From Thermococcus sp. JdF3 (GTDB lineage Archaea; Methanobacteriota_B; Thermococci; Thermococcales; Thermococcaceae), in NCBI RefSeq assembly GCF_012027495.1, contig NZ_SNUK01000006.1, positions 1 to 64,000 on the forward strand: DNA of 64,000 nt, read 5' to 3'. How positions within the stretch are numbered: the stretch's first letter is position 1; every line of letters starts with the position of its first letter. The notes below the pieces were generated by a model. It made no database searches. It was not told the origin of the DNA and saw only the letters and a list, made by a program, of their open reading frames with translations. Shown in pieces: positions 25,006-48,024 of this stretch. The position numbers and the translations under genes are program-made.

Positions 25006-25083
25006 GGGCCGGTGGCTTAGCATGGATAGAGCGTCGGCCTCCGGAGCCGAAGGTCGCGGGTTCAAATCCCGCCCGGCCCGCCA
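25006..25083 (+). tRNA. tRNA-Arg (anticodon CCG)
   Basis: GGGCCGG/CCGGCCC acceptor stem, discriminator G and encoded CCA. Anticodon loop ctCCGga gives CCG, reading arginine CGG codons. T loop ttcaaat. The palindromic element starting at 25089 follows within 6 bases. Confidence 0.95.
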
Positions 25084-25088
25084 GTTAC

Positions 25089-25230
25089 AAACTTCGCCTG
25101 TGCGAAGTTTGATCAGAGTTGGTGGCTCCTCCTAGAGGCTTTCTTGTTCAGTGGTTTCTTCAGTCACTTGGAGTGTCTGGGTTTGGAAGCTTTTGGTTGA
25201 GAAACTCGTTGCCCAAGACTGTCCACCAAC
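25089..25230 (+). repeat. palindromic repeat element, short copy after tRNA-Arg
   Basis: Begins with a 9-bp perfect hairpin (AAACTTCGC, loop ctgt, GCGAAGTTT), then gatcagagttggtggctcct. GTTGGTGG at 25119-25126 is complementary to CCACCAAC at 25223-25230. The same layout (terminal hairpin, ATCA-AAGTT, covarying arm, later tggttt) recurs at 46872-47173 and 47165-47467. The right-hand hairpin is missing here, so this copy looks shortened. No coding capacity seen. Confidence 0.7.
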
Positions 25231-25273
25231 CGTTATAAGGGATCACCTTTAACTTTCCCGTTAGGTGTCAGTT

Positions 25274-46790: not shown

Positions 46791-46868
46791 GGGCCCGTGG
46801 TCTAGCCTGGTTATGACGCCGCCCTCACACGGCGGAGGTCCGGGGTTCGAACCCCCGCGGGCCCACCA
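46791..46868 (+). tRNA. tRNA-Val (anticodon CAC)
   Basis: Acceptor GGGCCCG/CGGGCCC, discriminator A, CCA encoded. The anticodon stem CCGCC/GGCGG holds loop ctCACac, reading valine GTG. T loop ttcgaac. The repeat element at 46872 begins 4 bases downstream. Confidence 0.95.
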
Positions 46869-46871
46869 TAA

Positions 46872-47173
46872 GAAACTTTTGCCAAGCAAAAGTTTCATCA
46901 AAGTTAGTAGCTCCTTCTCGAAGCCAAGTCTTTGAATGGTTTTTCTTTAACGCGTACTCGAATGTTGAGAACGCATGGGATTACCTATTTTAATTTGGTT
47001 TAACTTTAAAATAGACGCCCGAAGGGCGTCAACGGAGAGTAAACCCTTCACATGAATCCTTTCTCTTAAAGTGTTCTCGTTTGAAGAACGAACATTCAAA
47101 GTGCAAAAACCATTTCACATTACATTTTAATGGAGAGCTACTAACGTTTGGTCAAGCTTTTTCTAAAAGCTTG
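46872..47173. repeat. inverted-repeat-bounded element, copy 1 (302 bp)
   Basis: Ends in perfect hairpins: GAAACTTTTG/CAAAAGTTTC (46872-46896) and CAAGCTTTT/AAAAGCTTG (47153-47173). Inside them GTTAGTAGCTC (46903-46913) pairs with GAGCTACTAAC (47135-47145). The centre has ggtttaact ... ACGCCC-gaag-GGGCGT ... agtaaaccc. The whole could fold into one long imperfect hairpin. Same architecture as the next element, different sequence in the arms. No credible protein. Confidence 0.75.
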
Positions 47174-47467
47174 CTGGCGAAAAGTTTGATCAAGGTTCGT
47201 GATTCTTTTGTGAAGTGCTCTTTTGAGATGGTTTGCCTTTTGTAACGTGTGTTTTGGTAGGGAATTCCTTGTTTAAGTTGCTTTGTTTGTGTGGGGTTTA
47301 CTTCTCCCGCGCTCCTTTGGAGCGCTTTTGGAGTTAAACCCGCATTTCGGAGCTTTGAGAGTGAATTTCTTCTCAAAAATGACCGTTTGGCAGTGCAAAC
47401 TCTCTTCAACTGCACTTTGGGAAGAAGAATCACGAACTTTGATGAAACTTTTCGTCAGAAAAGTTTC
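47165..47467. repeat. inverted-repeat-bounded element, copy 2 (about 303 bp)
   Basis: Right end is a 10-bp perfect hairpin GAAACTTTTC/GAAAAGTTTC (47444-47467); the left end shares AAAAGCTTG with copy 1. GTTCGTGATTCTT (47195-47207) pairs with AAGAATCACGAAC (47425-47437). The centre on the minus strand reads ggtttaact, then hairpin GCGCTCC/GGAGCGC, then agtaaacccc, as in copy 1. Beyond the right end gtacttcacaaaa (about 47482) mirrors ttttgtgaagtgc (about 47206). Overlapping short ORFs here are by-products of the symmetry. Confidence 0.75.
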
Positions 47468-47946: not shown

Positions 47947-48024
47947 TGGTGCGGTGGCCGGGATTTGAACCCGGGTCACCGGCTTGGAAGGCCGGTGTCC
48001 TAGACCAGGCTAGACTACCACCGC
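47947..48024 (-). tRNA. tRNA-Gly (anticodon TCC)
   Basis: Acceptor GCGGTGG/CCACCGC, discriminator A, CCA encoded. Anticodon loop ctTCCaa in stem CCGGC/GCCGG, reading glycine GGA/GGG. Follows tRNA-Phe after 10 bases on the same strand, so the two are probably cut from one transcript. Confidence 0.95.

Follow-up and report, generated by a model that had tools for sequence, protein, structure and literature searches.

The DNA analysed here (the window) is a stretch of 64,000 nucleotides from Thermococcus sp. JdF3, in which two large palindromic elements lie one after the other between tRNA-Val(cac) and tRNA-Gly(tcc), and a third, shortened copy lies behind tRNA-Arg(ccg). The relevant features are the following:

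25006-25083, + strand: tRNA-Arg(ccg), which anchors the shortened copy
25088-25232, + strand: shortened type A copy with an E2-like end at the tRNA and without core hairpin
46791-46868, + strand: tRNA-Val(cac), anchor of the array (ARAGORN)
46872-47173, + strand: element copy 1, type A, AGCTC subfamily, with its E1-like end toward the tRNA, 3 nt (TAA) past the CCA
46872-46896: terminal hairpin of copy 1, perfect, with an 11-bp stem
47014-47030: core hairpin of copy 1, GACGCCC-GAA-GGGCGTC
47153-47173: right terminal hairpin of copy 1
47174-47467: element copy 2, type A, GATTC subfamily, with the outer half of the left terminal hairpin missing at the junction with copy 1
47309-47325: core hairpin of copy 2, GCGCTCC-TTT-GGAGCGC
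47444-47467: right terminal hairpin of copy 2
47947-48024, - strand: tRNA-Gly(tcc), pointing toward the array from its other side and forming an edge of the inversion seen in genomes G001, G031 and G012

A preliminary description, made from the letters of the window, had reported two palindromes at this place, and both were found. Copy 1 carries the arms GTTAGTAGCTC to the left and GAGCTACTAAC to the right of its core hairpin. Perfect terminal hairpins had been attributed to both copies; this holds for the left end of copy 1, while the left terminal hairpin of copy 2 is reduced to CTGGCGAAAAGTTTG (47174-47188). Since this hairpin lacks its outer half, the two copies abut and do not overlap by nine bases. 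The copy reported behind tRNA-Arg is present as well, but it is shortened and its core is absent. Predicted single-strand folding of both copies was far stronger than that of shuffled sequence (z = -6.9 for copy 1 and -7.1 for copy 2, taken as 47165-47467), and no shuffle reached either value. BLAST searches with copies 1 and 2 returned 35 matches in the genome of JdF3 itself. What the preliminary description missed is the link to tRNA genes, at whose 3' ends the elements begin.

A complete copy is an imperfect palindrome of ~300 bp, consisting of a small hairpin at each end, an end motif, nested inverted blocks and a G+C core hairpin. The terminal hairpins are GAAACTTTGC..GCAAAGTTTC in E1 and CAAACTTCGCC..GCGAAGTTTG in E2, and the conserved end motifs are ATCAAAGTTTGTGATTC (E1) and GAYCAAGGTTCGTGATTC (E2), with the subfamily variants GGTTC and GCTC. 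Of 63 end pairs collected, most carried the identical variant on both sides (GATTC, 38; GGTTC, 9; AGCTC, 6; GGCTC, 1; the remainder mixed), with a spacing of mostly 250-270 bp. As read off the alignment, the core follows the subfamily, being mostly GCGCTCC in GATTC copies and GACGCCC in GGTTC and AGCTC copies. Mean column identity across the aligned copies was 59%; surveys based on exact repeats would miss the family, since its members share short stretches only.

A second palindromic element, designated type B, has a terminal hairpin followed by about GCTGGCGGA. Its ends resemble CTTCCGCCAGCGCT and AGCCCTTGC..GCAAGCGCT (loci L038, L117, L040, L042 and L084, as well as window-like arrays elsewhere); it co-occurs in the arrays and lies directly behind tRNA-Ile, Pro, Leu and Ser in the JdF3 genome. 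A linker, GTGGGGCGAAGCCCCACTCCGGGGGTTTGAGAGTACAG, recurs either connecting elements within arrays or terminating them (L034, L129, L135, L191, L203 and others). Some ends are branched, with the extra hairpins ACGTTGAAGCGAAGCTTCAACG and CACGGGACGACAGTCCCG between the arms of the terminal hairpin (L131, about 415-480; L128, about 1140-1210). In genome G006, in which the type A end motif was not found, the 3' flank of tRNA-Val(cac) (L233) holds a palindrome that combines GTGATTC arms and a GCGCTCC core with another kind of outer end; it may be a hybrid of types A and B.

The outer ends of the elements begin 0-6 nt past the CCA of tRNA genes, and nearly all the matching places read in the JdF3 genome start a few bases past a tRNA CCA. 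Among the 44 tRNA genes of this strain, type A elements lie directly behind the CCA at 12 and type B at four, and tRNA-Cys is followed by a remnant. A tRNA 3' end was located 20-26 nt outside the motif for 51 of 171 end motifs. The 120 motifs in the GTDB loci comprised 86 within 1.5 kb of a tRNA 3' end, 13 that were not and 21 undecidable because the record ends; thus 86 of 99 placeable motifs are close to a tRNA, often in arrays, where simple arithmetic (46 tRNAs, 2 Mb) would predict about 3-4% by chance. The end facing the tRNA was E2 in 59 cases and E1 in 42. At L035, about 480-780 (JdF3 C2:365.4-365.7 kb), one complete type A copy has no tRNA gene beside it; it lies upstream of a gene for a ribosomal protein (L37Ae by eye), with no Rfam match next to it. 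At L042, about 310-360 (JdF3 C5:223.4 kb), a type B end comes after a tRNA-His-like 3' fragment, the complete tRNA-His gene being 29 kb away (C5:194708). The arrangement resembles the distal boundary of an element that integrated between this tRNA and the array belonging to it.

Searches with the end motif, allowing up to two mismatches (a reversed-pattern control gave close to zero), detected it in 57 of 61 Thermococcus genomes, with up to 34 occurrences per genome. The motif was scarcer in four sister genera (g11, g13, g14 and g15) and was found in none of nine Pyrococcus genomes (g12). Thermococcales accounted for 75 of the 76 stretches in the GTDB scan; a single exact match in a Legionellales MAG (L139) is attributed to chance or contamination. 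The elements had no match in IMG/VR, plasmids or phages, and plasmid or virus carriers were thus discarded as a source. No account of these repeats was found in open-licence full-text papers, though older subscription papers may hold one, and the family is apparently undescribed, in line with the earlier remark that no named family was known and with the lack of an Rfam match.

The preliminary description further proposed that the paired arms covary and that copies in related genomes would keep their complementarity. Both proposals were borne out, the first with restrictions, in a set of 42 copies from many genomes in which 43 pairs in five nested blocks were scored on a structure drawn from one of the copies, a choice that favours this structure. 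In this set 87.3% of the cells were paired, compared with 37-53% when the partners were slid. Changes on both sides occurred in 64 cells vs 26.1 +/- 3.8 after shuffling, and the covariation score was 0.155 vs 0.116 +/- 0.004, with none of 500 shuffles as high; kinship among the copies inflates the comparison with shuffles, while the slid controls retain that kinship. Covariation is confined to the five conserved blocks and tracks the subfamilies: between the blocks, comparing the two arms of a copy gives no better match than comparing them with arms from other copies (z 0.3-1.7), indicating that covariation is a property of subfamilies and not of single copies. The earlier suggestion that each hairpin was copied as one unit is therefore not supported, the inner arms not being copy-specific, and snap-back copying of one arm was rejected on the same ground. 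The many additional copies, together with arm changes matched on the opposite side, show that this is no local accident but a real family, apparently without a name.

The other explanation offered at the outset was a conserved RNA structure, in which read-through transcripts of the tRNA genes would fold into a long hairpin with roles in trailer processing, termination or regulation. The location right behind tRNA genes, the strong predicted folding and the covariation of the five blocks speak in its favor; however, base-pair covariation is equally expected for palindromic DNA. Among the cells that are not Watson-Crick pairs, G-T (92) was no commoner than A-C (115), which counts against RNA, since a folded RNA would favor G-U. 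The core loop, read in the direction of the tRNA, was TTCGG in 16 cases and CCGAA in 11, showing no strand preference; elements stand behind tRNAs in both orientations and are absent from most tRNAs of the same genome; and Rfam returned only tRNAs above the gathering score. With the wobble test, the loop-strand test and Rfam all negative, an RNA function was rejected and is considered very improbable. Recognition or recombination of DNA fits the data better than a folded RNA.

The element found at one orthologous tRNA differs between close species. In 29 other genomes in which the gene upstream of tRNA-Val(cac) is 83-94% identical to that of JdF3, what follows this tRNA varies both in kind (E1, E2 or type B) and in subfamily. 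The few bases between the CCA and the element vary along with it, being mostly TAA before E1 and GTTA before E2. Behind tRNA-Cys, the region is longer than in JdF3 by about 578 bases in G024 and by about 868 bases in a MAG, values near multiples of 290. Other sites are inherited: the elements behind tRNA-Val(tac) in JdF3 (C3:268.0-268.3 kb, L049) and G017 (L092) are mostly 94-100% identical per 50 bases, while the identity of the adjacent gene falls to 72-90% in places, which may reflect selection or exchange of this stretch. No clean target-site duplication, exact excision or clean empty site was found, and the trailers vary between species with the element.

Gene order also changes at these positions. 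The segment from 28.6 to 46.9 kb of the window (~20 kb) is inverted relative to its flanks in G001, G031 and G012; the edges are the array behind tRNA-Val/Arg, the DNA behind tRNA-Gly and a further edge at 28.6 kb without a tRNA. In G034 a break occurs behind tRNA-Arg (25084/25209). The upstream neighbour of tRNA-Val(cac) is kept in all of the 29 genomes (in G017 and G066 over a few hundred bases only), and its downstream neighbour is tRNA-Arg in 12, tRNA-Gly/Phe in two, tRNA-Leu(tag) in two, tRNA-Pro in one and other or unresolved in 12; all 17 tRNA neighbours are convergent with tRNA-Val(cac). Considering all tRNAs, breaks restricted to the 3' side outnumbered those restricted to the 5' side in three genome pairs (10:2, 8:2 and 11:3). 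Breaks at the 3' side affected 15/20 tRNAs with an array vs 7/20 without one in the first pair, 9/19 vs 3/21 in the second and 10/23 vs 7/19 in the third. The excess is clear in the first two pairs only and constitutes moderate evidence, since the pairs have genomes in common and an array leaves less coding sequence in the flank. Breaks at the 3' side also occur at some tRNAs without a recognised array.

Inversion breakpoints in Thermococcus have been mapped to pairs of tRNA genes in opposite orientation, including two inversions that distinguish T. onnurineus from a second species, one at tRNA-Leu/tRNA-Thr and the other at tRNA-Leu/tRNA-Gly; the Leu and Thr tRNA genes failed to recombine in vitro, as they had too little similarity (PMC5495485). 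In our set T. onnurineus corresponds to genome G062. Genome G012, which we take to be Thermococcus sp. 4557, reproduces the published comparison. The DNA behind tRNA-Leu(caa) and tRNA-Thr(ggt) is reciprocally exchanged between G012 and G062, reproducing the published Leu/Thr inversion. Likewise, the sequence that follows tRNA-Leu(tag) in G012 follows tRNA-Gly(tcc)/Phe in G062. Palindromic type B sequence of varying length is present at all four Leu/Thr junctions, and the two G012 arrays involved share 87 bp at 87% identity, suggesting that the homology missing from the tRNA genes may lie directly behind them. In G001, two tRNA-Leu loci 0.9 Mb apart share 463 bp at 96.5% identity in inverted orientation, a repeat that spans element and tRNA and is a ready substrate for inversion.

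Based on this evidence, it can be proposed, with a probability of roughly 0.6, that these elements are lineage-specific, non-coding and non-autonomous repeats acting at the DNA level at tRNA ends, where they supply inverted homology for flipping segments of the chromosome. Since related, largely self-complementary DNA lies behind different tRNAs, any two arrays would offer inverted homology to each other. Recombination between two arrays, by RadA or by a tRNA-targeting integrase, would flip the segment between the two tRNA genes, and the same process may swap or convert elements, so that the family would spread by recombination or conversion from one tRNA end to another. The family would hold the tRNA-end site as a mobile or recombining element recognised through its ends, perhaps by an enzyme. 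An element-specific transposase or recombinase was not found, nor was a plasmid or virus carrier. A stronger version, in which a dedicated protein recognises the hairpins at the ends together with the nested blocks, swaps the arrays of different tRNA genes and inverts the DNA between them, and thereby causes the shuffling of gene order that separates Thermococcus from Pyrococcus, is considered unlikely.

The breaks could also derive from integrases acting on the tRNA genes, with the arrays as passengers. SSV-type tRNA-targeting integrases such as IntpTN3, whose substrates include tRNA genes and segments of 104 bp or more (PMC5495485, PMC8371274), would recombine the tRNA genes, and the arrays would collect and be shuffled there without supplying any homology. 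This activity fits the change of the bases behind the CCA along with the element, as expected for crossovers in the tRNA gene, and the 463 bp shared in G001 cover element and tRNA alike. Nevertheless, the conservation of the ends, the constant length and the covariation of the blocks suggest that the element itself is what is recognised, and the published Leu/Thr pair was too unlike to recombine in vitro, while the arrays at that place share the 87-bp stretch. A passenger role is regarded as rather unlikely. We consider quite unlikely that the elements are classical MITEs, that is, deletion derivatives of a DNA transposon inserted behind tRNA genes in both orientations by a transposase. Inverted-repeat ends with paired variants, a fixed length over 63 copies, dozens of copies, tandem insertions, the presence of both orientations and an occupancy that differs between species are all consistent with it; conversely, the loci read contain no autonomous partner, target duplications and near-identical young copies were not seen, matches between loci are not limited to the element but continue into adjacent modules and tRNAs, and most carriers have no Y1 transposase. 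Mobilisation by IS200/IS605 (Y1) enzymes, suggested by the hairpin-TCAA ends, was discarded on this last ground, as the Y1 transposase (PF01797) occurs in 25 of 94 genomes of the family Thermococcaceae and is absent from the element-rich G001, G033, G035 and G079. In one MAG a TnpB-like gene fragment (by eye; L198, 261-1019) was observed about 1.3 kb from an array module; a gene of this type was dismissed as partner, being more than 1 kb away and no general neighbour of the arrays.

Repeats that provide inverted homology at tRNA ends would be relevant for two reasons. The chromosomes of Thermococcus are scrambled beyond what their few insertion sequences explain, while those of Pyrococcus are recognisably colinear (PMC2718504, PMC5495485), and a family present at mapped inversion sites and common among Thermococcus genomes, but found in none of the nine Pyrococcus genomes searched, is a concrete and testable candidate for explaining this scrambling. 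Besides, archaeal plasmids and viruses usually attach at tRNA 3' ends, which is where the family places structured DNA.

Several known systems share some of these traits. REPs are tied to Y1-type enzymes, the RAYTs (PMC2817692). Bacterial REP/BIME sequences resemble the elements in being palindromes in alternating orientation that form mosaic intergenic arrays with many copies per genome; however, each unit reported here measures about 300 bp and begins at a tRNA 3' end, and most of the genomes that carry the family have no Y1 transposase. Non-coding sequence, inverted-repeat ends, fixed length and dispersed distribution are shared with MITEs, from which the elements differ by a nested palindrome over the whole length, hairpins inside the ends and a site-specific location behind tRNAs; neither a partner transposon nor a target duplication was seen. 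The tRNA 3' end is also the site of the SSV-type, TKV and pTN3 integrated elements, but the repeats are ~300 bp long, encode no integrase, carry no fragment that rebuilds the tRNA and lie outside the tRNA gene. The inversions reported in PMC5495485 are the closest precedent, as they occurred in the same genus with breakpoints at tRNA pairs and their Leu/Thr exchange was reproduced here; that work places the breakpoints at the tRNA genes and mentions no palindromes or repeat family there, whereas the present analysis finds arrays of palindromic elements directly behind these tRNAs.
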